Shown: positions 4,360-51,696 of the stretch, in pieces
Numbering within the stretch: position 1 is the stretch's first letter
Layout: each line of letters starts with the position of its first letter
Source: Corynebacterium afermentans subsp. afermentans
Lineage (GTDB): Bacteria; Actinomycetota; Actinomycetes; Mycobacteriales; Mycobacteriaceae
Reading direction: 5' to 3'
Assembly (NCBI RefSeq): GCF_030408355.1
Contig: NZ_CP046606.1
Span: forward strand, 434,001 to 498,000
DNA length: 64,000 nucleotides
The notes under the pieces: generated by a model
Seen by the model: only the letters and a program-made list of their open reading frames with translations
Databases searched by the model: none
Told to the model about the DNA's origin: nothing
Translations under genes and position numbers: made by a program

Positions 4360-4827
4360 ATGAAGTCGATTTTTCCGGAGCAGGGCGAGCGGCTGTGCGA
4401 AGGTACCGCGGATACGCAAAAGCTCGGTGAAGAGCTGGGCGCGGCGCTCGATGCGGGCGACCTCGTTGTGCTCGACGGCCCGCTCGGCGCGGGCAAGACC
4501 ACCTTCACGCAGGGCATCGCGAGGGGTATGGGGGTCAAAGGCAGGGTGACAAGCCCGACGTTCGTGATTGCGCGGGAGCATTCGTCGATAGGCAATGGCC
4601 CCTCGCTGGTGCATGTCGACGCATACCGGCTTGGCGACGACCCGCTAGGTGAGCTCGACGCCCTCGACCTGGACAGCGCCCTCGAGGAGGCCGTGGTGGT
4701 GGCCGAGTGGGGCGGCGGGCTGGTGGAGCAGCTCGCGCTGCGCTACGTGCACGTCACGCTTGATCGGCGCACGCACGCTGAGACGGAAGCACGCATCATC
4801 TCCTGGCGCGTCGAGGACGGGATGTAG
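4360..4827 (+). CDS. tsaE: tRNA t6A synthesis ATPase TsaE
   Basis: The P-loop ATPase partner of TsaB/TsaD in N6-threonylcarbamoyladenosine formation at A37 of ANN-decoding tRNAs. The Walker A motif GPLGAGKTT is at residues 40-48, followed by the family block SPTFVIAREH and the acidic VHVDAYRLGD region. Length 155 is typical. It abuts the alr stop with no gap. A perfect CGTCGATAGGCA 12-mer lies inside the gene at 4583, where it forces the rare Ile codon ATA. Confidence 0.95.
   Translation: MKSIFPEQGERLCEGTADTQKLGEELGAALDAGDLVVLDGPLGAGKTTFTQGIARGMGVKGRVTSPTFVIAREHSSIGNGPSLVHVDAYRLGDDPLGELDALDLDSALEEAVVVAEWGGGLVEQLALRYVHVTLDRRTHAETEARIISWRVEDGM
4583..4594 (+). repeat. Dispersed CGTCGATAGGCA motif
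   Basis: Exact 12-mer inside tsaE, extended downstream by ATGGCCCC. It is read as S-S-I-G-N. Confidence 0.8.
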
Positions 4828-4837
4828 GCTTACACGC

Positions 4838-5341
4838 ATGCTCAACCTCACTAGCCAGTCCCGCCGCTGGGTCGCGCTCGCAGCCGTACTGTGGCTCGTG
4901 CTCCTCGCCGGGATCATCTTCATCCCGCAGTCCCGGTCCAACGATCTCGCTCAGGTCGAGCCGACGAACTCGCTTTCTCGCTCGCTGCAGCAGACCCGCC
5001 CGGGCGGCGATGCCGTGGCCGCGCAGCTGGTGGACCCGGCGCGCATCTACGACCCGGAGCGCTACGTCGGCTACACCACCCTGTGCCCGGGCGAGCCGCA
5101 GGAGCTGGTGGACGCCAAGGTTGAGGCCTTCGGTATCAGCGTCGACGACGTGGACCTCGGCGGCGACCTGGGCTACGTGTTGCTCATCCCGGGTGGCGAA
5201 GGCGAAGCGCCCATGGTGGATGCCGTGGAGCTGAACAAGGTGGATATCTGCACCGTCCCGCAGTCCGAGTCCTTCCCGCTGAACACGGCGATGCCGTTCC
5301 ACATGAACCAGGGCCGCTGGACCCTCGGGTTGGGCCAGTAA
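4838..5341 (+). CDS. Membrane-anchored hypothetical protein within the tsa operon
   Basis: This 167-residue protein has one hydrophobic segment near the N-terminus (residues about 12-31, WVALAAVLWLVLLAG) after a short basic tail, so it is probably a single-pass anchor with an extracytoplasmic domain. The C-terminal domain has two Cys (TLCPGEP and DICTVP) that could form a disulfide outside the cell. It starts 10 bp after tsaE, and its TAA overlaps the tsaB ATG by one base. The operon position is probably conserved among corynebacteria, but I do not recognise the function. Confidence 0.7.
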   Translation: MLNLTSQSRRWVALAAVLWLVLLAGIIFIPQSRSNDLAQVEPTNSLSRSLQQTRPGGDAVAAQLVDPARIYDPERYVGYTTLCPGEPQELVDAKVEAFGISVDDVDLGGDLGYVLLIPGGEGEAPMVDAVELNKVDICTVPQSESFPLNTAMPFHMNQGRWTLGLGQ

Positions 5342-5973
5342 TGCTCGTCCTCGCCCTGGACACCGCCACGACTGACCTGGTCGCAGGCATCGTGGACGGG
5401 GACCGTGTGCTCGCGGAGACGGCTGTGGCCACTCGCGCGCACAACGAGACGCTCATGCCGGAGATTACTCGGCTGCTGGGGGAGGCGGGCGCCGAGTTCG
5501 CGGACTTGGGCGCGGTCGTGGTGGGGTGCGGCCCGGGGCCCTTTACGGGCCTGCGTGTGGGCATGTCTACCGCGTCGGCGCTGGGGCAGGCGCTTTCCGT
5601 TCCGGTGCATGGGGTGTGCACGCACGACGCGGTTGCTGCGTCGCTTAGCGGGGAGGCGCTGGTGGTCACCGACGCGCGCCGCCGCGAGGTGTACTGGGCG
5701 CGCTACTCGGGCGGTAAGCGGGTGGCGGGCCCGGACGTGTGCAAGCCGGCGGATCTTTCTTCGCCCGCGGTGGAGGTGGTGAGCGTGCCGTCGTCGCTAG
5801 CGGAGCTTTTGCCTATCGACGCCCAAAGGGTGACCTACCAACCCCCAACCCCCGCCGGCTTAGTCTCAGTCGCCGACCTGGACGCGCAGCCGGAGCCGCT
5901 GGTGCCGCTGTATTTGCGCCGTCCCGACGCTGTGCCGCCGAAGCAGGCCCCGAAGTCGCCGGCGCTGCCATGA
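5341..5973 (+). CDS. tsaB: tRNA t6A synthesis scaffold TsaB
   Basis: An ASKHA-fold paralogue of TsaD that dimerises with it and bridges to TsaE in t6A synthesis. Visible signatures are LVLALDTATTDL at the N-terminus, the ARAHNETLMPEI block and GCGPGPFTGLRVGM (residues about 60-73), all typical of TsaB. Length 210 residues. The ATG shares a base with the previous stop, and the stop overlaps the rimI start by four bases. A CGTCGATAGGCA 12-mer in reverse orientation lies at 5810. Confidence 0.95.
   Translation: MLVLALDTATTDLVAGIVDGDRVLAETAVATRAHNETLMPEITRLLGEAGAEFADLGAVVVGCGPGPFTGLRVGMSTASALGQALSVPVHGVCTHDAVAASLSGEALVVTDARRREVYWARYSGGKRVAGPDVCKPADLSSPAVEVVSVPSSLAELLPIDAQRVTYQPPTPAGLVSVADLDAQPEPLVPLYLRRPDAVPPKQAPKSPALP
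5810..5821 (-). repeat. Dispersed CGTCGATAGGCA motif
   Basis: Exact 12-mer on the minus strand within tsaB. It is read on the gene strand as L-P-I-D-A. Confidence 0.8.
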
Positions 5974-6446: not shown

Positions 6447-7492
6447 TTGTGTTGGGCATTGAGTCCTCGTGCGACGAAACCGGCGTGGGCATTGTTGAGT
6501 TGCACGACGACGGCACGATGAACATTCTCGCCGACGTGGTCGCCTCCTCGATGGAGCAGCACGCCCGCTTCGGCGGGGTCGTGCCGGAGATCGCCTCGCG
6601 CGCCCACCTGGAGGCCATGCCGCAGGTGATGGAGAAGGCGCTGGCGGACGCCGGCATTGCCAAGCCGGACGCGGTGGCCGCCACCGTCGGCCCGGGCCTG
6701 GCAGGCGCGCTGCTGGTCGGCGCGTCCGCCGCTAAGGCATATGCGGGCGCATGGGGGGTTCCGTTTTACGGGGTGAACCACCTGGGCGGGCACGTCGCGG
6801 TGGCCAACTTGGACGGCGAGCCGCTGCCCCACGCGGTGGCGCTGTTGGTCTCCGGCGGGCACACGCAGCTGCTGGAGGTCGAAGCCGTGGGCAAGCCGAT
6901 GCGGGAGCTGGGCACCACGCTCGACGACGCCGCCGGCGAGGCATACGACAAAGTCGCCCGCCTCCTCGGCCTGGGCTACCCCGGCGGCCCGGTGGTGGAC
7001 AAGCTCGCGGCCGAGGGCAACCCGGAAGCGGTGAAGTTTCCGCGGGCGCTTTCGCGCGCCGAAGACCTGCGCGGCGAGCACCGCTACAACTTCTCCTTCT
7101 CCGGATTGAAGACTGCGGTGGCCCGCCACGTCGAGGCCGCCGAGCGCGACGGCCGCGTTATCTCGCTGGAGGACGTCTGCGCGTCGTTCCAGGAAGCGGT
7201 GTGCGACGTGCTCACCGCTAAAGCCGTCATGGCCTGCGAGGACACCGGCGCGCGCACGCTGCTGCTCGGCGGCGGCGTGGCAGCCAACCGCCGGCTGCGG
7301 GAGCTGGCGCAGCAGCGCTGCGAGGCCGCCGGTATCGAGCTGCGGGTGCCGCGGTTTAACCTGTGCACGGACAACGGGGTGATGATCGCGGCGCTGGCCG
7401 CCCAGCTCATCCATGAGGGCGCCGCCCCGTCCGGACTGGGCGTGGGCACGGACACTTCGCTGGAGGTCGAGGTGCCGCTCGTGTCGTCGTAA
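6443..7492 (+). CDS. tsaD: tRNA N6-threonylcarbamoyltransferase TsaD
   Basis: The catalytic ASKHA protein transferring threonylcarbamoyl from TC-AMP to A37 of tRNA. Family signatures include [16 protein letters not shown] at the N-terminus, the metal-binding [10 protein letters not shown], the [10 protein letters not shown] loop and [15 protein letters not shown] near the C-terminus. GTG at 6443 (GTGA overlap with rimI) gives 349 residues, the usual length; longer in-frame extensions upstream fall inside rimI. It is the last t6A gene of the operon. Confidence 0.95.
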
Positions 7493-7557
7493 GGCGCGAA
7501 GTGTTGGTTGCGGATACGCTTGGCGACTGCACGTCTTACTCGACGAAAGGATGTCCC

Positions 7558-10087: not shown

Positions 10088-10117
10088 TCGCGCATTGCCG
10101 AAGGTTCGTCGCTAAGC

Positions 10118-12822: not shown

Positions 12823-13769
12823 ATGACACGTCAGGACGATCACATGGAGGAGTTCGCGCGCAGCGACGCGTTCTTTGACGCGCTCATGCTTGGCGACGAT
12901 CCTTCGGCTGGCACCGACCCCCTCGCCGCCGCTCTGTTGGATTTGAAGGCTGATGTTGACCGCCCGATGCCGCCGGCGCCGCAGCTGTTCACCGAAAATA
13001 CTCAGCCCTCTGGCAGCGTTGCCTCGTTGGAGGAAAAGCGCGCGGAGAAGGCGAAGCGCCGCGTCAGCCCTTGGCTGTCCGGCTTGATCGGCGCGGCTGC
13101 TGCGACCGTGGTGTGCGTCGGCACCGGTGCCGTCCTGTTCGAAAGCGACACTACCGACGAGGACACCACCGTGGTGGAGCTTGCCACCACCCTCGACGAG
13201 CTTGAGGTGGCGAGCGAAAGCGGTGACGCTGCCGCCGCCCGCGACCTGCTGGAGCAGGCGCGGGATCTGGTGGCGACTATCCAGGAGCGCGAACGCCACG
13301 CAGCCAGGGACGGCGCGTCCGCGACGGTGACGGAGACAAAGACGGTCACGGAAGCGGCCACGGAGGCGTCCACGGTGCCGCCGGAAGGCGCTTCCTCCGA
13401 GCGCCCGGCTTCGGAACAGGTCCCCGCACCGCCGGTGCAGCAGCCGACCCAGGCGCCGCAGGATCCCGCGCAGCGCGGCCCTGGGGCGGGAAATGGCGCC
13501 GGCACAGGCCATGGGAGGCCCACGCAGTCCACCCAGCCGACATCGTCGAGCCCGCAGCCGAGCACGACCGCCGGCAGCGCGGCACCGTCGCAGGGGCAGG
13601 ACGCGGCCAGCGAATCGCCGTCGTCGGAAGCGGGTGCGGAGCAGGAGAGCCCGTCGCTGCGAGTCAACGACCCGGCAACGATGGTCAGCTCGCCGGCCGA
13701 CTTTGGCGCGGGTGTCTCCGGCGGCGCAGAGGGCGGCCCGGTCGTCCACCCGGGCGCCGGCAGCAGCTC

Positions 13770-13773: not shown

Positions 13774-15800
<2,027 letters not shown>

Positions 15801-34312: not shown

Positions 34313-35862
34313 GGGCCGCGGCACTGTGGTTTCCGGACTGGCCGGTGCAGGCGGCGCGGCTGGAATCGGGCGATGAGCTGACAGAACCCATCGCAATCGC
34401 GGCGCAGCACCGGGTAAAGGTGTGCTCGCACGCCGCGCGCCAGGTGGGCATCCGCCGCGGGATGCGGGTGCGCAACGCCCAGGCGGTCGCGCCCGAGCTG
34501 ACGGTGGTAGAGGACAACCCGGACCGCGACGGGCGCATGTTCGCCTCGCTGGCCGCCAGCTTCGACGAGGTCGCCGCCAGCGTGGAGGTGATACGCCCTG
34601 GGCTCGTGGTGGTGGACGTGGACGCCGCGGGCCGCTTCCACGGCAGTGAGGGCAAAGCACTCGAGATGCTTATCGACGCCGCCTCGCGCCGCGGCATCGA
34701 CGCCTTCGCAGGCGCCGCCGACGAGATCGCCACCGCGCTGATCGCCGCGCGCACCTCCCAGGTGATCCCGCCGGGAGGATCGGCCGAGTTTTTGGCAGTG
34801 CAGCCGCTGGGCGTGCTGGTGGCGGAAGAGTCGCTCGCTGCGGACATGGACACCGTCAAAGCGCTGGGGCAGCTTGGCATTTCCACACTCGGGGAGCTGG
34901 CGAAACTGCCGCCGAACGCGGTGACCACCCGTTTTGGCACCAAAGGTATGCGCATCCACCGCATTGCCTCCGCCGCGCCGGACCGCCGCGTCGCCCCGGA
35001 GCTGCCGGTGGAGGACCTCGCCGTGGCGATCACCCCCGAGGACCCGATCGAGCGCGTGGACGCCGCCGCGTTCGCCGCCCGGGCCCTGGCCGCCAGCCTG
35101 CACGAACGACTCAAAGACACCGGCCGCAACTGCCTGCGCCTGAAAGTTATCGCCGAGCTTCACGACGGCTCCCGCGTCGAACGCGTCTGGCGCACTCGCG
35201 AACCGCTCACCGAAGCCGCCACCGCGGACCGCGTGCGCTGGCAGCTCGACGGCTGGCTGACAAACGGCGGCGCCGGCGCAATCACCAGCCTCATCCTCGA
35301 GCCGCTCGAATTCGCCGCGCCCGAACCAGTCGGCGAACTGTGGGCCGACGGCGCCTCCACCGACACCGCGCGCCGGGTGGTGGAGCGCGTCCAATCCCAA
35401 CTCGGCATCGACGCGGTGCTTCAACCGCGGCTCGTCGGCGGGCGCGGGGTGGCCGAGCGCGTGGCGATGGTGCCGTTCGGGGAGGAACCGGAGGACGTCG
35501 ATAGGCAATCGTGGCCCGGTGCGATCCCTCAACCCCTGCCCGCGCGCCTCGGCGGCGGCATCGACCACCCGGCCTCGCGCATCATGCTTATCAACGCTGC
35601 CGGCGCCCCCGTCATCGTCACCGCCGAAGCCCTGCTAAACAGCGAGCCGTACGGACTGGCCTGGGGCGACAAGCGCTACCTCGTCACCGGATGGGCGGGC
35701 CCGTGGCCCGTAGACGCGGACTGGTGGATGCAAACCAAACTGCCCGCAGGCCGCGTCGCGCGCATGCAGGTCGTGGGCCGCGAAGGAGGGGAAGGAGGCG
35801 CCGCGACCGGCTGGCTTTTGGTGTGGAGCCGGCGCAGCTGGCGCGTGGAAGCGGTGTATTAG
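34309..35862 (+). CDS. imuB: Mutasome protein ImuB (non-catalytic Y-family polymerase homologue)
   Basis: A 517-residue Y-family-like protein that bridges DnaE2 to the sliding clamp. The N-terminus AALWFPDWPVQAARLE and the block LVVVDVDAAGRFHG stand where active Y-family enzymes carry catalytic acidic motifs, so it should not polymerise. The helix-hairpin region LGISTLGELAKLPPNAVTTRFG follows. Start ATG 34309 overlaps the imuA' stop. Dispersed motifs are present at 34668 and 35496. dnaE2 lies about 6 kb downstream, separated by unrelated genes. Confidence 0.9.
   Translation: MRAAALWFPDWPVQAARLESGDELTEPIAIAAQHRVKVCSHAARQVGIRRGMRVRNAQAVAPELTVVEDNPDRDGRMFASLAASFDEVAASVEVIRPGLVVVDVDAAGRFHGSEGKALEMLIDAASRRGIDAFAGAADEIATALIAARTSQVIPPGGSAEFLAVQPLGVLVAEESLAADMDTVKALGQLGISTLGELAKLPPNAVTTRFGTKGMRIHRIASAAPDRRVAPELPVEDLAVAITPEDPIERVDAAAFAARALAASLHERLKDTGRNCLRLKVIAELHDGSRVERVWRTREPLTEAATADRVRWQLDGWLTNGGAGAITSLILEPLEFAAPEPVGELWADGASTDTARRVVERVQSQLGIDAVLQPRLVGGRGVAERVAMVPFGEEPEDVDRQSWPGAIPQPLPARLGGGIDHPASRIMLINAAGAPVIVTAEALLNSEPYGLAWGDKRYLVTGWAGPWPVDADWWMQTKLPAGRVARMQVVGREGGEGGAATGWLLVWSRRSWRVEAVY
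35496..35507 (+). repeat. Dispersed CGTCGATAGGCA motif
   Basis: Exact 12-mer within imuB, preceded by CGGAGGA and read as D-V-D-R-Q. Confidence 0.8.
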
Positions 35863-36589: not shown

Positions 36590-37468
36590 ATGCAACAACT
36601 GCCCTGCTCTGACGTAGAGGTTGAACCGCTGCCGGGAACCGCCAAACCCGGCTCCGTGTACGTGCTTTTTGAGTGGCCGGAAGCCTGGCCCCGCGACGTC
36701 ATGGGCGACGCCGCCCTCGGCGAGGAGCTCACCGCGAAACTTGGGCCCATGCTCGAAGAGCACGACGCGACGCTACTGCTCATCCGCCACCCAACGCGTG
36801 AGGGCCGCAACATCACCGACCACCACCTCTACCTCGTCTTCGCCGACGAGGCCGTCACTGAGGTCAAACACATTGACAGCCCCGAAGAGCTGCTGGAGCT
36901 GGATCTTTCTGGCCCGGGCCGCAACGGCGCCGAACGCCGCGAGCGCCCGCTGCTGCTGATTTGCACCCACGCTAAGCGCGACCGCTGCTGCGCCGTCAAG
37001 GGGCGCCCGCTGCTCAACGAGCTGCACGCGCGCCACCCGTTCGGCCCCGGCAACGACGTGGTGTGGGAGACCTCCCACATCAAGGGCCACCGCTTCGCGC
37101 CGACGATGCTGCTCCTGCCGTGGGCATACAGCTTCGGGCGCATGAACATTGAGGCCACCGATGCCATGCTTGCCGACGCATCCGCGGGCCGCTACTTCGT
37201 CCCCGGCAACCGTGGCCGCGGCACCCTGGGACCCGCCGAGCAGGTGGCTGAGCTCGCCGCCGCCGCAGAGGTGCCCGGTGCTCGCTACGGTCAGTTCGAG
37301 GTTGCTGCGTTTGACGGTGGCTCCGTCCTGGTCACCGACACTGCAGCTGGCCAGGCGTACGAAGTGCAGCTGGAGCAGCGCCCGGTGTCTGGCGTGGTCG
37401 ACTCGTGCGGAAAGGCGCCGAAGGAGAGCACGGCCTGGGTCGCGGTGTCGGTGACCCCGCGGCGTTAA
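36590..37468 (+). CDS. Sucrase/ferredoxin-like (Apd1-type) [2Fe-2S] protein
   Basis: 292 residues from ATG at 36590; an in-frame ATG at 36569 is less likely. The C-terminal thioredoxin-like half shows ICTHAKRDRCCAVKGRPL and WETSHIKGHRFAPTMLLLP, the Cys and His pairs that ligate a [2Fe-2S] cluster in the Apd1/Aim32 family. No membrane helices. Redox or metal-stress roles are known for eukaryotic relatives; the bacterial substrate is not established. It stands alone between two divergent or convergent neighbours. Confidence 0.8.
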   Translation: MQQLPCSDVEVEPLPGTAKPGSVYVLFEWPEAWPRDVMGDAALGEELTAKLGPMLEEHDATLLLIRHPTREGRNITDHHLYLVFADEAVTEVKHIDSPEELLELDLSGPGRNGAERRERPLLLICTHAKRDRCCAVKGRPLLNELHARHPFGPGNDVVWETSHIKGHRFAPTMLLLPWAYSFGRMNIEATDAMLADASAGRYFVPGNRGRGTLGPAEQVAELAAAAEVPGARYGQFEVAAFDGGSVLVTDTAAGQAYEVQLEQRPVSGVVDSCGKAPKESTAWVAVSVTPRR

Positions 37469-37676: not shown

Positions 37677-38447
37677 CTACATGTACTCGCCCAGGACCTC
37701 CGCCACGGAGCCGATAACGCGGTCCGTGGCCGCGCGCACCTCAGAAGGCGAGTGGTGGAAGCTGTGGGAGACGTCCGCGATGGCGTGCATGGGCAGGTCG
37801 TTCCAAGAATCGCCGAATGTGTAGAGCTGGATGGATTCGCGGGGGAGGCGGAGCTCGTCGAGAAGCTGCAAGATCCCTGCGCCCTTGGAGCGCCCCGGGG
37901 CCATGAGATCGATGTAGTCCTGGTTCTGCGCGACCTCGACCTCGCCGAGCGTGGACGTCCAGTCGACGACCTCCGCGCGCAGCTCGGCGTTACCAGGCAC
38001 CCAGATGGGCACGACAGCGAAGCGGTGGTCGGGGATGTCCGCGGGAGTCATCTGCGCAAAATGCGCGGTGAAGGTGTGGGTGATGCCGGTGTTGTTTGCG
38101 AACACCCCGTCGACTTGGCCCAGGGTGGTGCCGAAGATGGCCAGGCCGTCGCGGGACCCGAAGGCGTCCAAAGTCGCCTGCAACACGGAGCCTGCGACTT
38201 CGTGGCCGAAGATGAGCTCCCGGTTCGCCCCGTCCGTGGCGGAACCGCCGTTGGACAGCACCTGGTAGTCGAAGGTGAGCCCGCTGCCGCGCATCCCGTG
38301 GGCCAGCGCCGTGCGGGAGCGGCCGGTGGCAGAAAAAGCGAGATGCCCGGCAGCGCGCCACGCATCTATCGCGGCGATGTCCTCCTCGCGGAAGCCGTGG
38401 GGAGGGTGGTGGAGAGTGCCATCGAAGTCGAACGCCGCAACCTTCAT
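37677..38447 (-). CDS. HAD-superfamily (Cof-type, subclass IIB) phosphatase
   Basis: A 256-residue phosphatase. Motif I is AAFDFDGTLHHPP, motif II the SATGRSR region, motif III a Lys in PGRSKGAGILQLL, and motif IV TFGDSWNDLPM, the Cof-type arrangement. Start ATG 38447 (MKVAAFDFDG) is chosen; the frame extends upstream into metI and is not expected to be used. Substrate is probably a sugar phosphate or nucleotide. It lies 11 bp after metI and may be cotranscribed with it. Confidence 0.85.
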   Translation of the reverse strand: MKVAAFDFDGTLHHPPHGFREEDIAAIDAWRAAGHLAFSATGRSRTALAHGMRGSGLTFDYQVLSNGGSATDGANRELIFGHEVAGSVLQATLDAFGSRDGLAIFGTTLGQVDGVFANNTGITHTFTAHFAQMTPADIPDHRFAVVPIWVPGNAELRAEVVDWTSTLGEVEVAQNQDYIDLMAPGRSKGAGILQLLDELRLPRESIQLYTFGDSWNDLPMHAIADVSHSFHHSPSEVRAATDRVIGSVAEVLGEYM

Positions 38448-39160: not shown

Positions 39161-40185
39161 CGGGTGATCTCCTCAATCTCGGTGCTTTGCTGCAGCGTGG
39201 ACAAAAACTCGTTGATGGCGGCATCGTCGCCGTTAAGGCGCACGGTCATCTTGCCGAAGGAGCGCTCCTGCAGGGTGGTGATGCCGGCGTGCACCGGCTC
39301 CACCGACACACCGCGCCCGCGGGCGGCCTCGGCAGCGCCGAAGAACCCGGAATCCTCGGTGAGGTCCACGGTGAACAGGCGGCCCGGTTTGGCCAAAAGC
39401 TCGCGCGCCTCCACCTCGTCGGGGCGGTTGCGCAGGCTGGTGGCGGCGAAGCGCTGGGCCACGGAGGTTTGCGGGTTGGCGAACACGTCGTAGACGCTGC
39501 CGTACTCCACCACCTTGCCGTCTTCCATGACGGCAACCTTGTCGGCGATGGCGCGGATGACGTCCATCTCGTGGGTGATCACCACGATGGTGATGCCGAG
39601 CTCCTCGTTGACGCGGCGCAGCACGCCGAGGACCTCTTGGGTGGTTTCGGGGTCGAGGGCGGACGTGGCTTCGTCGGCAAGCAAAAGCGACGGGTTGGTC
39701 GCCAGCGCACGGGCGATGCCCACGCGCTGCTTCTGACCGCCGGAGAGCTGCTCCGGGTAGTTCTCGCCGCGCTCGGACAGGCCGACGAAGTCGAGCAGCT
39801 CCGCCACGCGGCGCTTGCGCTCCTTTTTGTCCACACCGGCCAGCTTCAGCGGGTACTCGATGTTGCCGGCGGCGGTGCGGGAGGAAAAGAGGTTGAACTG
39901 CTGGAAGATCATGCCGACGTTGCGGCGGATGTCGCGCAGTTTGCGCTCGGGCATGCCGACGACGTCGGTGCCGTCGAGAAGCAATTGCCCCGAGGTGGGC
40001 ATGTCCAGGCCGTTAATGAGGCGGACAAGCGTGGACTTGCCGGCACCCGAATAGCCGATCACGCCGAGAATCTCGCCCGGCTCGACGGTCAGGGTGACGT
40101 CGTCGACGGCGTTGACCTCGCGGTCTTTGGTTTTGAAGACCTTGGATACGTTCCGGAACTCAATCCGGGTGCCGGTGTGTGTCAT
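39157..40185 (-). CDS. metN: Methionine ABC transporter ATPase MetN
   Basis: A 342-residue ATPase with Walker A GYSGAGKST, signature LSGGQKQRVGIARAL and Walker B LLLADEATSALDP. A C-terminal NIL/ACT-type domain (residues ~265-342) in this family binds methionine and inhibits transport when cytosolic methionine is high. It starts directly at the metQ stop. Confidence 0.95.
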   Translation of the reverse strand: MTHTGTRIEFRNVSKVFKTKDREVNAVDDVTLTVEPGEILGVIGYSGAGKSTLVRLINGLDMPTSGQLLLDGTDVVGMPERKLRDIRRNVGMIFQQFNLFSSRTAAGNIEYPLKLAGVDKKERKRRVAELLDFVGLSERGENYPEQLSGGQKQRVGIARALATNPSLLLADEATSALDPETTQEVLGVLRRVNEELGITIVVITHEMDVIRAIADKVAVMEDGKVVEYGSVYDVFANPQTSVAQRFAATSLRNRPDEVEARELLAKPGRLFTVDLTEDSGFFGAAEAARGRGVSVEPVHAGITTLQERSFGKMTVRLNGDDAAINEFLSTLQQSTEIEEITR

Positions 40186-41076
40186 CTACTTGTACTCCTC
40201 CACGAGTCGGTCGAGGACCTCGTTGAGCTCATCCTTGGAGCGCTGGACCTGCACGGCGGTGCCGTTGGAGTCCTCGTTGAGCGCCGCGGTGACTTCCTCG
40301 GACTGCCAGACGTCCACGATCTTTTCGTAGGTCTCGTTGTCCAGGTCGTCGCCGGAGACGGTGAAGACGTTGATGTACGGCTCCGCCAGCTCCGAATTCG
40401 GATCGTCCGCGGCCACCGAGGAGGCCGGGTCGATGCCGGCGCGCGCCAGCCAGTTGTTGTTGATCACGGCCGGGCGGCCCTCGTTGTAGGCGTTCGGCGT
40501 CTGGGAAGCGTCCACGGCGACGACCTTGACCTTGGAGGCGTCCTTGTCAATGTCAGCCGGCGTCGGGGTCAGCTTCGGCGCGCCGTCACGCAGGGTGACC
40601 AGGCCCGCCTGAACCAGCACGTTGATGGCGCGGCCCTGGTTGGACGGGTCGTTCGGGATGGCGATCTCGGTGCCCTCGATGCCGTCGAGAGAGTCGTGGT
40701 CCTTCCAGTACAGGCCCAGGATGTTGATCTCGCCCGAGCCGATGATGCGCAGGTCCTCGCCGGCGGTGGCGTTGTACTGGGCCTGGTAGTTGATGGTCTG
40801 GAACTTCGAGATCTCAATCTGCCCCTCGACCTGCGCCGGGTTGACCTGCGGGTACTCGGTGAACCGCATGATGTCCAGGTCGATGCCGGCCTTCTGCGCC
40901 TCGTCGGCGAAGACGCTCCATGCCTTCTGGTCGGCGTCGGTGGTGCCGATTTTCACGGTGACCTTGTCGCCGTCGCCATTGCCTGCCGACGACTCCGTCT
41001 CCGACGAGCAGGCCACCAGCCCGGTGGCCGCGATGAGCGATGCCGCTGCTGCGGCGATAACGCGGTTGGTGCGCAT
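40186..41076 (-). CDS. metQ: MetQ-type methionine-binding lipoprotein, second copy
   Basis: 296 residues. The signal peptide IAAAAASLIAATGLVACSS places the lipid-modified Cys at residue 23. The NlpA/MetQ fold shows TVKIGTTDADQKAW, FQTINYQAQYNA and AIPNDPSNQGRAINVL. It is 43 bp after the first metQ copy and directly abuts metN. The two copies share much sequence but differ in the ligand-region segment after EDLRIIGSGEI, so ligand preference may differ. Confidence 0.92.
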   Translation of the reverse strand: MRTNRVIAAAAASLIAATGLVACSSETESSAGNGDGDKVTVKIGTTDADQKAWSVFADEAQKAGIDLDIMRFTEYPQVNPAQVEGQIEISKFQTINYQAQYNATAGEDLRIIGSGEINILGLYWKDHDSLDGIEGTEIAIPNDPSNQGRAINVLVQAGLVTLRDGAPKLTPTPADIDKDASKVKVVAVDASQTPNAYNEGRPAVINNNWLARAGIDPASSVAADDPNSELAEPYINVFTVSGDDLDNETYEKIVDVWQSEEVTAALNEDSNGTAVQVQRSKDELNEVLDRLVEEYK

Positions 41077-42177: not shown

Positions 42178-45100
42178 ATGAGGTTCAACGGGGGAGCGCC
42201 GCTGTCGTGGTCGAGGCTCGAGCGCATCCTCTCCGGCCGCCCCGGCCCGGAGCCGGTGCCGGTTGGCCACACCGGCGCGCCCGCAGGCGCTGCGTACGGC
42301 AAAGCGCAGCCTGCGCCCCCGCCGCGGGAGCGATGCCTATCGACGACACCGTTCGCCGAGCTGCACACCGTGAGCTCCTACAGCTTCCTCGGCGGGGCGA
42401 GCGAGCCGGAGGATGTGGTTGCCAGGGCCGTTGAGCTGGGGCTGAGTGCGGTGGGGCTGTTGGACCGGGACGGGTTTTACGGCGCGGTGAAGTTCGCGGA
42501 GGCGGCCGCTGAGGCCGGTCTGGATACCGTATTCGGGGCGGAGCTGACACTCGGCGACCGGGTCCTGCCCGTGCTCGCCCGCGGGCCGGAAGGCTACAAG
42601 CGCCTGTCGCACCTGATGGCGGATGCGCACATGGCCACCCGCGAGAAAGACAAGGTGGCCTACCCGCCGCTGGAGCTCATCGGCGACCAGCTCGGCGGCA
42701 CCTGCGTCGTGCTCGCCGGCTGGCGGTGGACGGAGGAAATCGACCACCTGGTCGACGTGTTCGGCGCAGACAATGTCGTGCTGGAGTACGAGGTGTCCAT
42801 GACACCCGAGGACGCGGACCGCCACGCGGCGCTGGATGAACACGCGGGCAAACTCCCCGCCATCGTCACGGCGCTGCCCGCCGCGGCCACACGCGACCAT
42901 GCCAGGCTGGCGCAGGCGAAGCGGGCGCTGGCCAGGCGCGAATCGCTCGCGCAGGCGCACGGGGACCTGCACCCGATGGGGGCGAACTGGCTGCGCTCCG
43001 GCGACCAGCTCCAACGCATGTACCCAGGCTGCGAGTCGAAATTGGCTTTCAGCGTTGAGCTGGCGAAACGCTGCGCGTTCACGCTCGACTTGGTCGCGCC
43101 GGAGCTGCCGCGCTACCCCACGCCGGACGGCCGCAGCGAGATGGACCACCTGCGAAATCTCACGCTGGCGAGTGCGCAGTTTCGCTATGCGGCGCGCTCG
43201 CCGGAGGTGCGTCGAAAAGCGATGGCCCAAATCCGCTACGAGCTGGAGGTGATCGAGGAGCTGAATTTTCCCGGCTACTTCCTCATCGTCTACAACCTGG
43301 TGGATTTCTGCGCGAGGCAGAACATCATGTGCCAGGGACGGGGCAGTGCGGCGAACTCGGCGGTGTGTTTCGCTCTGGGCATCACCAATGTGGAGCCGAT
43401 CGAGGCGGGGCTGCTGTTCGAGCGTTTCTTATCCCCGGACCGCGACGGCCCGCCCGACATCGACTTAGACATCGAGTCGGGCCGGCGCGAAGAGGTGATC
43501 CAGTACGTCTACGACACCTACGGGCGCGACAACGCGGCGCAGGTGGCCAACGTGATCACGTACCGGACCAAGGGTGCGGTGCGCGACGCCGCTCGCGCTT
43601 TGGGGTTCGCGCAGGGCGCGGCTGATAGTTGGGCGAAGGGGATGGCGGAGGTTCCGGAGGGCGTCGAGAAGCTTGCGGCGCAATTCAAAGGGCAGCCGCG
43701 CCACCTGGGCATCCACTCCGGCGGCATGGTGATTTGCGACCGCCCCATTGCGGACGTGGTGCCCGTGGAGTGGGCGCGCATGGAAAACCGCTCGGTGGTG
43801 CAGTGGGACAAGGACGACTGCGCCTCTGCCGGCCTGGTCAAGTTCGACCTGCTCGGCCTGGGCATGCTGGAAGCGCTGCACCACATGGTGGACCTGGTGG
43901 AGGAAACCACGGGCCGCACGGTCAACCTGTGGGAGCTTCCGCTTGACGACGCCTCCGTGTACGACATGCTCTGCCGCGCCGATTCCGTCGGCGTGTTCCA
44001 GGTGGAATCGCGCGCGCAGATGGGCACCCTGCCCCGGCTGAAGCCGCGGCAGTTTTTCGACCTGGTGGTGGAGGTGGCCCTGATTCGTCCGGGCCCGATC
44101 CAGGGTGGGTCGGTGCACCCCTATTTAAGAAGGCGCGACGGGCTGGAGCCGGTGACCTACGACCACCCGGTGCTCGAGCGCGCCCTGGGCAAGACGCTGG
44201 GCATCCCGCTGTTCCAGGAGCAGCTCATGCAGATCTGCGTGGATGCGGCCGGCTTTTCGGGCCGAGAAGCCGATGCGCTGCGACGCGCCATGGGCTCGAA
44301 ACGATCCCCGGCTCGCATGGCGGCGTTGAAGTCGCGGTTTTTCGAAGGGTGCTGGCGCACCAACGAGATTGGTTCGGACGTGGCCGAGGGGCTCTGGCAG
44401 AAGATCGTCGCCTTTGCCGCCTACGGGTTCCCGGAGTCGCACTCGCAGTCGTTCGCCTCGCTGGTGTACTTCTCCGCCTGGTTTAAGCGCCACTACCCGG
44501 CGCAGTTCTGCGTGGGGCTGCTGCGCGCGCAGCCGATGGGGTTTTACTCCCCGCAGTCGCTGATCCAGGACGCGCGCCGGCACGGGGTGGAAGTGCTGCC
44601 GGTGTGTGTGAACAACTCGGGGTGCGAGGCGCTGTGCGTGGACTCTTCGACGATCCGGGTGGGGCTGAACCTGGTGCGGGGGCTGGGTGCGGACGCGGCT
44701 TTGCGGATTGAACGGGCCGCGCCTTTCGACGGCATCGCGGACCTGGCGCGCCGGGCCGACCTGTCCGTGGAGCACGTCGAGGCGCTGGCCCGGGCGGGGG
44801 CGCTGGACTGCTTCGGGGTCACGCGCAGGCAGGCGCTGTGGCAGGCGGGCGTGGCGGCCACGGAGCGCGAGGGCATGTTGCCCGGGTTGTCGTCGGTGGT
44901 GGCGCCGTCGCTTCCCGGCATGAACCCGTTTGAGCTGATGGCCGCCGACGTGGTGGCCACCGGTGTCACCCCCGGGCTGATGCCGGTGGAGATGGTGCGT
45001 TCGGCGTTGTCGGCGCAGGGTGTGGTGCCGGCTGCTGAGCTGTTGCACGGGGTGGAGGACGGCACCCGCGTGCGCGTGGCCGGCGTGATCACGCACCGCC

Positions 45101-46511: not shown

Positions 46512-47911
46512 GTACCGCGAGCAACCAGCGCAACCTCCACACCACCCCCGGCATGGAGGGCTACCGCCGCATCCACCGCCTCACGCCACTCCTTCGCGTC
46601 TGGACGTTCGTGCTGGCACTGGCCACGATTGCGCTGTTCAACTTCACCATGCCCATCTACCACTGGGCGCAGCGCGAAAACGTCGGCGTGCGCGAGATCG
46701 CGTGGGCGGCGGCGGGAGCCGTCGCGGCGCTCGCGGTGATCTTCGCGGTCTCCCAGATTTGGTGGCGCCGCAGCGGCTTCAAAATCGGCGAGGAGGAGGT
46801 GGAGGTGCGCCGCGGCGTGCTCACCAACCAGGTCCGCGCCGCGCGTTTCGACCGCATCCAGGCCGTCGACGTCATTGAATCTTTCGCGCCGCGGCTTTTC
46901 GGCCTCGCGTCGGTGCGCATCGAGGCCGCCGGCAACGCGCAATCCGCCATTGACATCACCTACCTGCCGCGTGATGAAGCGGAGGAGGTGCGCGCGCAAC
47001 TGCTGCGCCGCATTGGGGGACCGCAGAAGCAGTTGCCTATCGACGCCTCCGGCCCGAACCTCGTTCCCCCAATCCCCATCCGCAGGTCGCTCATCGGCAC
47101 CGCGTTCCAGATGTCCACGCTGTTCACAATCGCGTGGGCGTTCGTGCCGATTTGGACGGACCTGACCGCCGCGGCGATCATCCCGGTGCTGGTGGGTTTC
47201 TTGCCAAGGATCTGGCGCACCATCGACCAGTCCTGGCGGTTCACCTGCACCAAAGAAGGGGAGATGTTCCACCTCACCTACGGGCTGGCCAACCGCCGCC
47301 GCCAGGCGGTGCCGCGCTCCCGCATTCACGCGGTGCAGCTGCGCCAGCCGATGTTCTGGCGCATGTTCGGCTGGTGGACAGTCTCCGTGGTGGTAGCCGG
47401 CTACGGCTCGGAGCGCAACAAGCAGACCGGCACCTCGAAGCTTCTGCCGGTGGGCACGTGGGAGCAGGCGAAGGCGATGGTGGACGCCATCGGGCCGATG
47501 ACCGGCGGCGAGCTGACGGACCTATCCGCAGCCGATTACCGCTCGCCGCGCAGCGCACGGTGGGTCTCGCCGATCGATTGGAAACGCCAGACCGTCACCA
47601 TCCGCGACGGCGCCGTCGCCACGACCGCAGGCCGGCTGGGGCGCTGGTACCAGATGGTGGAAACGCCCCACATCCAGGAGCTGGCGTTCGAGCAGGGCCC
47701 GCTGCAGCGCGCCCTCGGCCTGGCCAACGTGGACCTGGACATGGTGCCCGGCCCGTTCAGTGTCTCCTTGCGCGATGTGGGGGAGGCGCAGGCACGTGAA
47801 ATCGTCGATAAGCTGCGGGCCCGCAAGCTCCCACCGATGCAGGTGACGGACCCCTTGTCAGATACCGCCGACGAAGCCGAGCTGGCGCCACGCCTCGTAG
47901 ACGGCGACTGA
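46508..47911 (+). CDS. Bacterial PH-domain membrane protein (YdbT-like)
   Basis: A 467-residue protein with two or three PH-like repeats: EEVEVRRGVLTNQVRAARFDRIQAVDV (residues ~95-160), FHLTYGLANRRRQAVPRSRIHAVQL (~255-330) and a third near VTIRDGAVATTAGRLGRW. Hydrophobic helix pairs lie between them. GTG start overlaps the previous gene. The 3' end overlaps the convergent trmL by 54 bases. A CGTCGATAGGCA 12-mer is at 47034. Confidence 0.87.
   Translation: MSTASNQRNLHTTPGMEGYRRIHRLTPLLRVWTFVLALATIALFNFTMPIYHWAQRENVGVREIAWAAAGAVAALAVIFAVSQIWWRRSGFKIGEEEVEVRRGVLTNQVRAARFDRIQAVDVIESFAPRLFGLASVRIEAAGNAQSAIDITYLPRDEAEEVRAQLLRRIGGPQKQLPIDASGPNLVPPIPIRRSLIGTAFQMSTLFTIAWAFVPIWTDLTAAAIIPVLVGFLPRIWRTIDQSWRFTCTKEGEMFHLTYGLANRRRQAVPRSRIHAVQLRQPMFWRMFGWWTVSVVVAGYGSERNKQTGTSKLLPVGTWEQAKAMVDAIGPMTGGELTDLSAADYRSPRSARWVSPIDWKRQTVTIRDGAVATTAGRLGRWYQMVETPHIQELAFEQGPLQRALGLANVDLDMVPGPFSVSLRDVGEAQAREIVDKLRARKLPPMQVTDPLSDTADEAELAPRLVDGD
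47034..47045 (-). repeat. Dispersed CGTCGATAGGCA motif
   Basis: Exact 12-mer on the minus strand within the PH-domain gene, flanked by GCCTCCGG; read as L-P-I-D-A-S. Confidence 0.8.
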
Positions 47912-48346: not shown

Positions 48347-49219
48347 GTGACTGCGATCAAACTGGACGGAAAACTCTACCGCGAGGAGATTTTCGCGGAT
48401 TTGAAGGAGCGCGTGGCTCGTCTCAAAGCTGAGCACGGCCTCACCCCGGGCCTGGCCACGGTGCTGGTGGGGGAGGACCCGGCGAGCCAGAACTACGTGC
48501 GCATGAAGCACAAGGACTGCGAGGAGCTGGGGATCGCGTCGATCATGAAGGAGCTGCCGGGCGACTGCACTCAGGAGGAGCTGGAGCAGCTTATCAGCGA
48601 GCTGAACCACGACCCGGCCGTCACCGGCTACATCGTGCAGCTGCCGCTGCCGAAGCACCTGGATGAAAACCGCATTCTGGAGCTGATTGACCCGGCGAAG
48701 GACGCCGACGGCCTGCACCCGGTGAACCTGGGCAAGCTGGTGCTCAACGAGCCCGCCCCGCTGCCGTGCACCCCGAACGGCTCCATCAAGCTGCTGGAGC
48801 GTTTCGGCGTGGATCTGAACGGCGCGATCGTGTGCGTGATCGGCCGCGGCGTGACGGTGGGACGCCCGATTTCGCTGATGCTCACCGCCCGCGATGTCAA
48901 CGCCACCACCGTGCTGTGCCACACCGGCACCAAGGACCTCGCCGCGGAGACCCGCCGCGCGGACGTGATCATCGCCGCCGCCGGCAAGCCGCACATGATC
49001 ACCGCGGACATGATCAAGGAAGGTGCGGCGCTTCTCGACGTCGGCGTCTCCCGTGTCGACGGCAAAACCGTCGGCGACCTGCACCCGGACGTGTGGGACA
49101 AGGCCGGCTGGGTCTCCCCGAACCCGGGCGGCGTGGGCCCGATGACGCGCACGTTTTTGGTGCGCAACATCGTGGAAAACGCAGAACGCCAGGCCGGCAT
49201 CGGCCAGGACGCCAGCTAG
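48347..49219 (+). CDS. folD: Methylene-THF dehydrogenase / methenyl-THF cyclohydrolase
   Basis: Bifunctional one-carbon enzyme: 5,10-methylene-THF to 10-formyl-THF with NADP. 290 residues. Family blocks include [25 protein letters not shown] with the catalytic Lys of YVRMKHK, the GYIVQLPLP stretch, [16 protein letters not shown] for NADP binding and the PGGVGPMTR block near the end. GTG start. It is followed by a DUF3017 gene, a common actinobacterial pair. Confidence 0.95.
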
Positions 49220-49228
49220 GGCGCCGGT

Positions 49229-49618
49229 TTGGCAAACAGCAGGATCCAGCTGCCGGGAAGCGACCGGTTGGGCGACCGGTTGAGCACTGAGCTTCCCGAC
49301 GGGCTCACGCTGGACAACCCCCACGACCGCGGCGCGGCCGCCTCGCCACTGCCGGTGGCGGTGCAGCGCGCGATGGCCGCTCTGTTCGTGGTGGGGTTCG
49401 TGCTCTCCGGCGTCTACGCCGCCACGGAGCACTGGCGTCGCGCCACGTTCACGCTCGGCGCGGCCATGCTGTGGCTGACCGTGATGCGCCTGACCTGCGA
49501 TTCCAAGGTGATCGGCTTGGTGGCGGTGCGCTCGAGACGCTTCGACGCGCTGTTTACCACCGCCCTCGGCGCGGCCATGCTGTGGCTGTCCTGGTCAGTG
49601 GACTCGCTCGGGTCGTAG
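49229..49618 (+). CDS. DUF3017 family membrane protein
   Basis: A 129-residue protein with three hydrophobic segments (AMAALFVVGFVLSGVYAA, ATFTLGAAMLWLTVMRL, FTTALGAAMLWLSW) after a charged N-terminal region. It starts at TTG 49229, 9 bp after folD, as in other actinobacteria where DUF3017 follows folD. The loop MRLTCDSKVIGLVAVRSRRFD is characteristic. Role unknown. Confidence 0.78.
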   Translation: MANSRIQLPGSDRLGDRLSTELPDGLTLDNPHDRGAAASPLPVAVQRAMAALFVVGFVLSGVYAATEHWRRATFTLGAAMLWLTVMRLTCDSKVIGLVAVRSRRFDALFTTALGAAMLWLSWSVDSLGS

Positions 49619-49697
49619 TACGTCAGTTCAGTAACTGGGCGCTGCGTGTCGGCAGGCTTCGTAGGGTTAAAGCTGTCGTTTCCCCAGGAGGTCCCGC

Positions 49698-49766
49698 ATG
49701 GCAGATTCCCACTCGAGTTATTTCACATTCACCACCGATTTACCCGGCACCAAGCGTAAAAGTTGA
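49698..49766 (+). CDS. Possible 22-residue peptide (or gene remnant)
   Basis: MADSHSSYFTFTTDLPGTKR plus two residues, preceded by CAGGAGGT eight bases upstream, an excellent ribosome site. The stop falls within an inverted repeat. It may be a leader peptide, or the 5' stub of a gene replaced by the repeat element. No upstream or downstream frame continues it. Confidence 0.35.
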   Translation: MADSHSSYFTFTTDLPGTKRKS

Positions 49767-49833
49767 CATTTTGGTCCGTTCGGGTCTGTAAAACCCCAGG
49801 TCAGATTTCAGCCGCTTTGTGTTAACTTTTACG
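49755..49833. repeat. AAAAGTTGAC/TTTTACGAAA-type inverted repeat element
   Basis: CGTAAAAGTTGACA (49755-49768) pairs with TGTTAACTTTTACG (49820-49833), 13 of 14 positions complementary, around a 51-bp loop. A related element is at 10168-10245. It lies between the DUF3017 gene and the phosphoesterase. Confidence 0.65.
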
Positions 49834-49897
49834 AAATCGTGCACCGAGGAAGCCACAGGCTCCGCAGCCAGGCTCCGCGCCCGGATACCCTGGGGCC

Positions 49898-50563
49898 ATG
49901 CCTCACCTCGCAGCCGATCCCATCCTCGTTGTCGCCGACATCCATTTGGGCCGCAAGCAACACGGCGACAAGAAGACCGGCCCGGGCATCGACTGGGCCC
50001 TGGACACCCTAGGACGCGGCGCGGAGGCGGGGGCGCGGCATTTGGTCATGCTCGGCGACGTCATCGACCGTAAGCGCTTCACTGACGCCACGTACGGCGA
50101 GGTCACTCGGTTTTTCCAGCGTGGGCTCGAGTTTTTCAACAGCGTCGTGTTCGTCGCTGGCAACCACGACGTGCACCACGACCTAACTGGGTTTATTCCG
50201 GGTGGCGTGATCGTTGCAAGGCAAGAGCCTCAGACCATCCGAGCGGGTGGGTGGGCGCTGCACACCGCTGCGGTGGAGGTGGACCGGGACCCGCGTGAGC
50301 TCGTCGCAAAGTTCCCCGCGAAGGTGGAAGACGCGCCGAACCTGGGCCTTTTGCACACCTCGGTGACAGGGGAGTACTCCAACAACCCGTGCCTGCCGTG
50401 CACCCGCGACGAGCTGGCCGCCTGCGGGTACGGCGCCTGGTTGCTCGGGCATGTGCACGAGCGCATCACGCTTGCCGACGCCCCGTTTGCCGGCTGGGTC
50501 GGTATGGGTAGGGCCTACCTGGCCACCTTGGACGGCACCGAGGTGCAGGTCAACGACCTCTAG
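49898..50563 (+). CDS. Metallophosphoesterase
   Basis: A 221-residue calcineurin-like phosphoesterase. Metal ligands are visible in order: DIHLGRKQ (Asp-x-His), LGDVIDRKR, GNHDVHHD, LLHTSVTGEY and GHVHERIT. The layout resembles SbcD-type nuclease domains but lacks an SbcC partner nearby, so the substrate is open. It is convergent with metX and overlaps it by four bases. Confidence 0.85.
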   Translation: MPHLAADPILVVADIHLGRKQHGDKKTGPGIDWALDTLGRGAEAGARHLVMLGDVIDRKRFTDATYGEVTRFFQRGLEFFNSVVFVAGNHDVHHDLTGFIPGGVIVARQEPQTIRAGGWALHTAAVEVDRDPRELVAKFPAKVEDAPNLGLLHTSVTGEYSNNPCLPCTRDELAACGYGAWLLGHVHERITLADAPFAGWVGMGRAYLATLDGTEVQVNDL

Positions 50564-51696
50564 ATGTCGTAAGCGCCGCGCTCTGCTGCGACTTCGCGCG
50601 CGGACGGAGTCTCCTTGGTCAGGGTGATGAAGTTGCGCAGGATCAGGTCCATCTGGCGGGCCTCCACTAAGAAGGCGTCGTGGCCGACGGGGGAGGACAG
50701 TTTCGCCATGGCGAGCAGGTTGCCCAGGTTGCGCGAGAGGTGTTCCTGCTGGTGGTAGGGGTACAAAATGTCGGTGTCCACGCCCACGATCATGGTCGGC
50801 ACCGTCGACGAGGCCAGTGCCTTGTTCAGCCCGCCACGGCCGCGGCCCACGTCGTGGCGGTTGAGCGCTTCGGTGAGGGTGACGTAGCTGGCGGCGTCGA
50901 AACGCTCGGTGAGTTTTTTGCCCTGATGTTCCAGGTAGGACTGCGCGGCGAAGCGCTGGCCGTCGGCGCGGAAAGGCCCAAGCGGATTTTCGCCCGCCTG
51001 GGCGGAGGTGCCGAAGCGCTCGTCGATTTCCAGCTCGCCCCTGTAGGTCAGGTGCGCAATGCGCCGCGCGGCGGCCAGGCCAGCGTTCGGGGCGCAGCCG
51101 GTGCCGTGGTAGTCGCCGCCGTGCCAGTCGGGGTCCTGGGTGATGGAGGTGATCTGGGCGGTCTGGATGCCAATCTGCCAGGCGCTGGCACGGGCGGAAA
51201 CGGCGAGCACCAGCGCGTAATCCACGGTTTCGGGGTAGAGCAGCGTCCACTCCAGGGTGCGCGCGCCGCCCATGGAGCCGCCGATGATGGCGTGGACTCG
51301 GCCGATGCCAAGCGCTTCCAAAAACGCGCGTTCGGCGTGCACCATGTCGCGAATGTTGATCGCGGGAAAGCGCGAGCCCCAGGCACCACCGTCCGGGTGT
51401 TCGCTGGCAGGCCCGGTGGAGCCGTAGCAGGACCCCAGTGCGTTGGTGCAGATCACGCACCACTCGTCGGTGTCCAGCGCCTTGCCGGGGCCGATGGCCT
51501 CGCACCACCAGTCGGCGGCGTCGGAGTCGCCCGTGAGTGCATGCTCGACCAGCAGAATGTTGTTCTTGCCGCCAAGGTCACCACGGGGGACGCCCCACCG
51601 TCGATAGGCAATGTGCGCATCCTCGATCACCGCGCCCGCCTCGGTGTGGACGTCGCCGATAGCGACGGTTGCCAGCTCGCCTTCCGCAGCCAGCAT
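50560..51696 (-). CDS. metX: Homoserine O-acetyltransferase MetX
   Basis: Acetyl-CoA-dependent acetylation of L-homoserine, the first methionine-specific step. This 378-residue alpha/beta-hydrolase enzyme has the nucleophile Ser in GGSMGGARTLEW, the NILLVEHALTGDSDA oxyanion region, and catalytic Asp and His in the C-terminal part (SPVGHDAFLVEARQ). It starts at the base after the metY stop, so metY-metX is one operon. The 5' end carries a CGTCGATAGGCA 12-mer at 51599. Confidence 0.94.
   Translation of the reverse strand: MLAAEGELATVAIGDVHTEAGAVIEDAHIAYRRWGVPRGDLGGKNNILLVEHALTGDSDAADWWCEAIGPGKALDTDEWCVICTNALGSCYGSTGPASEHPDGGAWGSRFPAINIRDMVHAERAFLEALGIGRVHAIIGGSMGGARTLEWTLLYPETVDYALVLAVSARASAWQIGIQTAQITSITQDPDWHGGDYHGTGCAPNAGLAAARRIAHLTYRGELEIDERFGTSAQAGENPLGPFRADGQRFAAQSYLEHQGKKLTERFDAASYVTLTEALNRHDVGRGRGGLNKALASSTVPTMIVGVDTDILYPYHQQEHLSRNLGNLLAMAKLSSPVGHDAFLVEARQMDLILRNFITLTKETPSAREVAAERGAYDI
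51599..51610 (+). repeat. Dispersed CGTCGATAGGCA motif
   Basis: Exact 12-mer on the strand opposite to metX, followed by ATGTGCG; in metX it is read as H-I-A-Y-R-R. Confidence 0.8.

Follow-up and report, generated by a model that had tools for sequence, protein, structure and literature searches.

The DNA uptake sequences (DUS) of the Neisseriaceae fall into eight dialects, have a core with graded positions and reach up to thousands of copies, as set out in the sections of PMC3630211 that describe them. Haemophilus influenzae has about 1300 copies of its uptake signal sequence (USS), AAGTGCGGT, and a scan of 569 prokaryotic genomes for spaced pentamer pairs gives, for three Corynebacterium species, only pairs related to clustered regularly interspaced short palindromic repeats (CRISPR), according to the passages of PMC5217627 on these subjects. 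Transformation of Micrococcus luteus, an actinobacterium, requires Tad pili and ComEC, and tad and comEA/comEC often co-occur in actinobacteria (PMC4322843); the term 'uptake sequence' does not appear in the main text of that paper. Here we describe a candidate uptake-sequence-like tag of Corynebacterium, the degenerate word CGTCG-NN-ARGC, which was first noticed as a dispersed 12-mer, CGTCGATAGGCA, in 64,000 nucleotides of Corynebacterium afermentans subsp. afermentans. This stretch, the window, spans positions 434001–498000 of a genome assembled as one contig of 2,375,453 bases (NZ_CP046606.1).

Compared with the Neisseriaceae DUS, as portrayed in those sections of PMC3630211, the Corynebacterium tag is likewise a 12-base, non-palindromic word found on both strands, in and out of genes, with clade dialects that differ by a few bases around common positions and a core that is most conserved; copy numbers are thousands per genome for the DUS and hundreds to two thousand for the tag. 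The letters of the two differ, and Corynebacterium has Tad pili where the Neisseriaceae have type IVa competence pili. Its mycolic-acid outer layer is a further difference from the Neisseriaceae. With the USS of the Pasteurellaceae the tag shares a core with weaker flanks, scattered intragenic copies and clade variants; unlike these, it has GC-rich flanks on both sides and no terminator pairs. HIP1 of cyanobacteria is a palindromic, very frequent word whose presence is limited by lineage; the tag resembles it in genome-wide frequency and lineage limitation but not in palindromy, and we know of no dialect clades of the Corynebacterium kind for HIP1. The Tad, ComEA and ComEC gene set of Corynebacterium is that of M. 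luteus, for which transformation has been shown in the part of PMC4322843 concerned.

The 12-mer is a local spelling of a degenerate motif

Exact copies of CGTCGATAGGCA number 8 in the window and 101 in the whole genome (51 and 50 on the two strands), whereas the reversed control, in which the pattern is read backwards and counted in the same sequence, gives 0 + 0 genome-wide. The first-pass annotation had all eight positions and strands right, and its chance figure of 0.01 per 64 kb agrees with the 0.15 copies expected under a fourth-order Markov model in a genome sample of 864 kb (the window and 40 stretches of 20 kb), in which 52 were found. The tag is the most over-represented word of this sample at lengths of 8–12 bases. 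With up to two mismatches allowed, the window contains 31 matches to CGTCGATAGGCA; 100 dinucleotide shuffles averaged 5.55, and no shuffle gave as many as 31. Genes contain 37 of the 52 sampled copies, distributed by frame as 10 and 11 in sense and 13, 2 and 1 in antisense, and positions along genes are roughly flat; the copies thus occur inside genes, in several frames and in both orientations, as had been claimed. The codons ATA, CTA and AGG, thought rare from the window, are used 0.72, 1.74 and 2.68 times per 1000 in the genome and are indeed rare. Judged by the window's monomeric isocitrate dehydrogenase, C. haemomassiliense (98%) comes closest among named relatives, followed by C. mucifaciens (95%).

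Counting of every single-base neighbour of CGTCGATAGGCA or CGTCGATAAGCA in the 864 kb revealed which positions, numbered from 0, are specified. Changes at positions 0–4 (CGTCG), 7 (A), 9 or 10 (GC) leave just 0–4 copies. Position 8 is tolerant (G 52, A 46, C 10), position 6 takes any base (T 46, G 23, C 17 and A 18, with A at position 8), position 5 is partly tolerant (C 11 and T 8 besides A 46) and position 11 is A, G or T. Orthologous places in relatives carry CGTCGCAAAGCA, CGTCGTAAAGCA or CGTCGTCAAGCA. From the neighbour counts and these spellings we take the motif to be CGTCG-NN-ARGC, followed preferably by A. The word noticed in the window is real, although the unit is not the fixed 12-mer first described; it is a degenerate, non-palindromic CGTCG-NN-ARGC(A) with preferred flanks and with dialects, and CGTCGATAGGCA is one local spelling of it. 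CGTCGNNAAGC alone is about 12 times commoner than the 12-mer in the source genome (1,194 against 101).

The motif has two weaker flanks, CCGGAGG at 7 to 9 bases before it and GCTCC at 3 to 4 bases after it. Among 544 sites, CCGGAGG begins 7–9 bases upstream in 31, where 0.12 would be expected per position, GCTCC lies 4 bases past the 11-mer in 26 (0.90 expected) and AATGGC follows it immediately in 11 (0.07 expected), while these peaks are absent at 512 other CGTCG words. The partly common flanks suspected from the window are thus real, and invariant core positions are combined with tolerant positions and flanks, as in uptake sequences.

Codon-preserving nulls, gene context and polarity

The 735 called genes were compared with codon-preserving shuffles (40 for the words, 20 for CGTCGNNARGC). 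Observed and shuffled counts are 37 and 0.67 for the 12-mer, 123 and 4.7 for CGTCGATARGCD, 249 and 18 for CGTCGANARGCD, and 457 and 55.4 for CGTCGNNARGC, for which the highest of the 20 shuffles gave 73; for the reversed control they are 59 and 36.0, the highest being 48. The shuffles fall far below the observed counts, which upholds the view that it is the DNA word, rather than the protein, that is under selection or bias. A frequency equal to that of a codon-preserving shuffle, or restriction to one protein family or frame, had been named as speaking against the tag; neither was found.

Of 546 sites in the sample, 457 are in genes, 81 outside and 8 on gene edges, and since 82% of the sequence is coding and 18% non-coding, genes are not avoided. 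Spacing is near random, with a mean of 1,414 and a coefficient of variation (CV) of 0.99. For polarity, the origin was placed at the contig start and the terminus at the skew change near 1.215 Mb; no replication polarity was found on this basis, the leading/lagging counts being 74/84 for CGTCGATARGCD and 169/181 for a wider form. A polar chromosome-organisation site is not supported by the 74/84 count, and equal strand use without replication polarity is as in uptake sequences. Near the presumed terminus the exact 12-mer thins out, with bins of 3 and 5 where the mean is about 8, and the degenerate motif does so mildly (2.53 against 3.29 per 5 kb); terminus avoidance, a mild effect at most, was set aside as a feature. 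Another over-represented word, CGACCCGGA, has 74 of its 78 in-gene copies in one sense frame, and we therefore attribute it to codon context.

Distribution across and beyond the genus

In the source genome CGTCGNNAAGC occurs 1,194 times against 89 for the control. Among 242 genomes of the genus, 171 have 195–1,964 copies, about equally on the two strands, the highest counts being 1,964, 1,901, 1,893 and 1,891. The remaining 71, separated by a cut at 195 copies read off the count table, have 8–134, mostly at control level, with some above it (G170, 115 against 27; G178, 127 against 35; G102, 134 against 61). A strongly over-represented word of some 9–12 bases in very many copies is again as in uptake sequences. 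The narrow pattern CGTCGATARGCD ranges from 0 to 752 copies across the genus, and the 12-mer exceeds 40 copies in eight same-genus genomes only.

Beyond the genus, 113 genomes from 30 other genera of the family give ratios of CGTCGNNAAGC to control of at most 2.6 (maximum 373 against 143, in G338) and at most 9 copies of CGTCGATARGCD; loci from other genera, 1.35 Mb in all, contain the tag 19 times and the control 26 times. Among 13 named-species loci of 22 kb, two of them shorter, the tag was counted 14 times in C. lipophiloflavum and C. propinquum, 12 times in C. mucifaciens and C. haemomassiliense, 11 times in C. urinipleomorphum, once in C. marambiense and not at all in C. spheniscorum. 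A metagenome assembly locus has no copy of the tag and 10 of CATCGNNAAGC. The tag is confined to Corynebacterium in the sample searched.

The tag is scarce in foreign DNA. At the host density of 0.357 per kb (that of G064), about 15 sites would be expected in phage BFK20 (42 kb), 17.5 in the phage-plasmid pCGR1 (49 kb) and 16 in phage phi673 (44.5 kb), all three being replicons of C. glutamicum hosts; 1, 2 and 0 were found, and the reversed control is absent from all three. Within the source genome, site density climbs with GC content (Spearman 0.47 in 172 bins of 5 kb; control 0.05), and the 17 bins below 61% GC have 0.64–0.83 sites per bin against a mean of 3.15. Scarcity in these replicons and low-GC bins is as in uptake-sequence systems. 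As a separate observation, 20 kb of the same genome (826000–846000) with a low GC content of 0.585 has no motif sites and is probably an acquired island.

Conservation of sites among relatives

The 53 sites of the window were traced into 12 relatives with 73.5–94% identity over the aligned parts. At the 378 orthologous places aligned, the motif is kept in 223, lost without a gap in 124 and replaced by a stretch with a gap in 31, so that 124 of 155 losses are gapless; gain and loss are gapless at most sites. Insertion of copies as units, in the manner of miniature inverted-repeat transposable elements (MITE) or repetitive extragenic palindromic (REP) sequences, is not what these losses and the alignments indicate. 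In 9 of 10 relatives CGTCGANARGCD is retained more often than permuted words are, by 1.2- to 2.4-fold (24/26 against 33/68 in G091; 12/25 against 17/68 in G152), in a test that is biased because the sites were picked in the source genome, with an equal bias in the permuted words.

Dialects

Unbiased word counts in seemingly motif-free genomes revealed other spellings. In G096, GGCATCGGCA occurs 20 times in 34 kb against 0.37 expected. The corresponding GCATCGGCAAGC reaches at least 15 copies in 19 of the 242 genomes (402 in G096) and at most 14 in the rest, and 18 of the 19 fall among the 71 poor in CGTCGNNAAGC (Fisher p 7e-10); the exception, G023, is mixed, with 352 copies of CGTCGNNAAGC and 106 of GCATCGGCAAGC. 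TadA, TadB and TadC of 30 chosen genomes were used for a tree with G120 as the single outgroup. One clade with a support of 1.0, lying within CGTCGNNAAGC lineages, unites the ten GCATCGGCAAGC genomes included in it with G023 and G042, and the CGTCGNNAAGC spelling is also present in a separate early branch (G004, G055, G070 and G237). A third spelling, CGTCGTCAATC, has 130 copies in G053 and 16 in the next highest genome. Words of G131, CGTCGGACA (9 against 1.17) and CGTCGGACC (7 against 0.94), are tentatively a fourth. Dialects specific to clades are a further feature held in common with uptake sequences.

No clear motif was found in 34 kb of G042. The 14-kb Tad loci of G042 and G096 contain few copies of CGTCG itself (27 and 23), against 74–99 in G024 and G012 of similar GC content, and in 34 kb it occurs 89 and 87 times, respectively, where base composition predicts 122 and 128. 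The deep-branching, motif-free G120 (loci L184 and L221–L226) has a word of its own, GGCGGCGTCC, with a GGCGTCC core, found 44 times against 7.3 expected. The frequent words of G052, G032, G079 and G152 were rejected as dialects, being local repeats: short-repeat clusters, some of them inverted, consist of CTTTCTAGTAG or CTTTCGAGTAG in G032 and G079, GAGTAAGCATC in G052 and GCTGCATAGTC in G152 (loci L166, L171, L161, L162, L168 and L169).

Competence genes

ComEC and TadA were each found in 80 of 80 genomes and TadB in 30 of 30, and comEA adjoins comEC in 19 of 20 neighbourhoods. Competence machinery is thus encoded, as in uptake-sequence systems; ComEC, Tad and comEA would allow uptake but are no proof of it.

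A ComEC open frame of at least 647 residues is present in 27 of 40 genomes picked as motif-poor and 1 of 40 motif-rich genomes. We rejected ComEC length as a correlate of the motif on two grounds: the extra residues are in the N-terminal region and in loops and follow deep lineages, and the motif-poor set had been picked with CGTCGATARGCD, 5 of its 40 members (G053, G055, G069, G070 and G237) being rich in CGTCGNNAAGC. Individual ComEC frames are unusual: that of G123 seems interrupted by one internal TGA, that of G128 is short (325 amino acids, matching 2–188 of 270), and so is that of the motif-rich G130 (350 amino acids).

Interpretation of the tag

Among the roles proposed for the 12-mer in the first-pass annotation, the first, a DNA-uptake-type sequence, fits the evidence best. 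We consider it somewhat more probable than not that the word is how a DUS/USS-like tag of Corynebacterium, spread by biased transformation, is spelled locally; uptake as the selecting step, and the identity of the acting proteins, are what we infer. The tag is non-polar, strand-balanced, gene-indifferent, formed mainly through substitutions, phage-poor and re-spelled by clade, as the Neisseriaceae DUS are, and we place it as uptake-sequence-like; proven members are defined by preferential uptake. Spread by biased uptake is the known explanation of uptake sequences, reportedly from Maughan and colleagues in 2010, as cited in PMC12236230. In Corynebacterium, a receptor for DNA on the cell surface, linked to the Tad (Flp) pilus, would prefer tag-bearing DNA, which would enter through a channel of ComEA and ComEC, and tagged fragments would recombine into the chromosome more often than untagged ones. 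Tags would then spread, and be restored, wherever few substitutions suffice, in any gene, frame or strand, and as the receptor preference drifted between clades the spelling would follow. We would give even chances to the proposal that self-DNA is marked for transformation dependent on Tad, ComEA and ComEC by C(G/A)TCG-NN-AAGC, which would have at least two, and probably four, spellings. No report of the tag was found in the open-licence literature; of 5.39 million papers, 35 contain at least one of five spellings of the word, and the 20 whose titles were compared are on unrelated subjects.

Several observations weigh against uptake. Transformation or uptake data for Corynebacterium were not found in the open-licence literature, nor was natural transformation of C. 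glutamicum. The machinery does not discriminate, ComEC and TadA being just as common where no motif was found, and neither main spelling is present in 53 of the 242 genomes at the cut-offs used. No cognate receptor was found: the type of TadE-like pilin, set beforehand as a predictor of the motif, failed for G055 and G070, in which the pilin has diverged and CGTCGNNAAGC is nevertheless carried, and for G042, in which it is similar yet no motif occurs in 34 kb; G096 alone fitted the prediction, with the CATCG instead of the CGTCG dialect. Retention is not above the control (1/18 against 5/45) in G012, which of all the aligned relatives is the most distant. Density in the window appears nearly independent of conservation across relatives (0.78, 0.74 and 0.89 per kb), with 0.89 in the widely aligned parts and 0.74–0.78 in the less aligned ones, as a measure of accumulation in the core genome. 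Part of the antisense excess stems from codon context, since one antisense frame holds 288 of the 457 intragenic sites. Inverted close pairs are not in excess in the sample (7 spacings of at most 60 bases against 21 expected), whereas the Neisseriaceae DUS have many, in the sections of PMC3630211 cited above. The tag also differs here from the USS, as noted. Such pairs often serve as terminators and are usual in DUS and USS, though not strictly defining.

The main rival is a binding site for a chromosome-organising or nucleoid protein, kept by selection at each site, with dialects arising by co-evolution with the protein. In its favour are the even scatter of hundreds to two thousand sites, their balance between strands, a retention that exceeds that of control words and the thinning of the exact 12-mer near the presumed terminus (3 and 5 against about 8). 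We nevertheless regard this explanation as unlikely: the degenerate motif thins only mildly there (2.53 against 3.29), spacing is near random (CV 0.99), and selection would be needed at some 1,000 separate places, most of them re-spelled upon a change of the protein. Non-palindromic sites that are indifferent to orientation are, moreover, unusual for nucleoid proteins. A recombination-stimulating Chi-like site of a repair helicase–nuclease, or a translocase guide like the FtsK orienting polar sequences (KOPS), would account for over-representation in the genome, rarity in phage-type replicons and scatter through genes, but Chi and KOPS are polar and shorter than the tag, and the absence of leading/lagging bias (74/84, 169/181) makes this improbable. 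Slightly less probable still is a site for a DNA methylase, restriction enzyme or similar modification system, kept to mark the chromosome; a partly specified, genus-limited word with clade variants would be in keeping with it, yet graded flanks and free central bases misfit a strict enzyme site, and restriction and methylase sites are usually avoided or neutral rather than enriched tens-fold.

Two further explanations seem to us very improbable, and equally so. Flanks in common beyond the core recall an old mobile miniature repeat, as had also been suggested for the 12-mer; however, 124 of 155 losses are gapless, re-spelling goes by clade and mutations avoid the fixed positions, which the decay of a repeat would not spare, so the remnants of such an element are contradicted. 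That the word is a by-product of codon usage or amino-acid composition draws on the 288 of 457 intragenic sites in one frame and on a reversed control mildly above its own shuffle (59 against 36.0), but it is opposed by the 457 sites against 55.4 in codon-preserving shuffles, by an equal density outside genes (81 of 546 sites in 18% non-coding sequence) and by genomes of similar base composition without the tag.

If the tag does serve uptake, a large and much-used Gram-positive genus would be naturally transformable under conditions yet to be found, and addition of the correct spelling to donor DNA could decide the success of transformation. The dialects would be species barriers in the genus of the industrial organism C. 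glutamicum, and their natural changes would test spread by biased uptake against usefulness of each copy. Uptake sequences would also have arisen a second time, independently, in bacteria that have an outer lipid layer; we know of no other uptake-sequence system outside Gram-negative families. The genus-wide dialect table makes the function of the tag directly testable in a laboratory strain. If uptake is not involved, a DNA-reading protein with about 1,000 sites per genome remains to be found.

Sites in the window

The exact 12-mer CGTCGATAGGCA is present on the forward strand at 4583..4594, 23275..23286 (followed by AATGGCTCCG), 35496..35507 (preceded by ACCGGAGGA) and 51599..51610, and on the reverse strand at 5810..5821, 33156..33167, 42334..42345 and 47034..47045 (preceded by GGCCGGAGG). 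At 33156..33167 the motif is kept in all 8 relatives aligned there. Two of the near-variant coordinates of the first-pass annotation, 14814 and 47813, are the ends and not the starts of sites (14804–14814 and 47803–47813). CGTCGATAAGC occupies 14804..14814 (+, preceded by ACCGGAGGG), 25514..25524 (+), 30221..30231 (−), 34668..34678 (−) and 47803..47813 (+), and CGTCGATAGGC occupies 31574..31584 (+). CGTCGAGAAGC is found on the forward strand at 34279..34289 (followed by GAAGGCTCCG), 37856..37866, 39972..39982, 43662..43672 (preceded by TCCGGAGGG), 54960..54970, 57574..57584 and 61086..61096; the copy at 57574..57584 has both flanks, GCCGGAGGG before and GAATGGCTCC after.

Other matches to CGTCGNNARGC are on the forward strand at 7485..7495, 10107..10117, 24257..24267, 24365..24375, 29810..29820, 39672..39682 and 62310..62320, and on the reverse strand at 232..242, 579..589, 933..943, 3591..3601, 4629..4639, 12888..12898, 22910..22920, 27015..27025, 31259..31269, 31982..31992, 35157..35167, 37168..37178, 40981..40991, 43941..43951, 44721..44731, 49030..49040, 49291..49301, 50470..50480, 52098..52108, 57168..57178, 59584..59594, 59808..59818, 61468..61478 and 63415..63425. 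At 43210..43220 (+) the window reads CGTCGAAAAGC, and the relatives carry CGTCG(TA/CA/TC)AAGC at this place.

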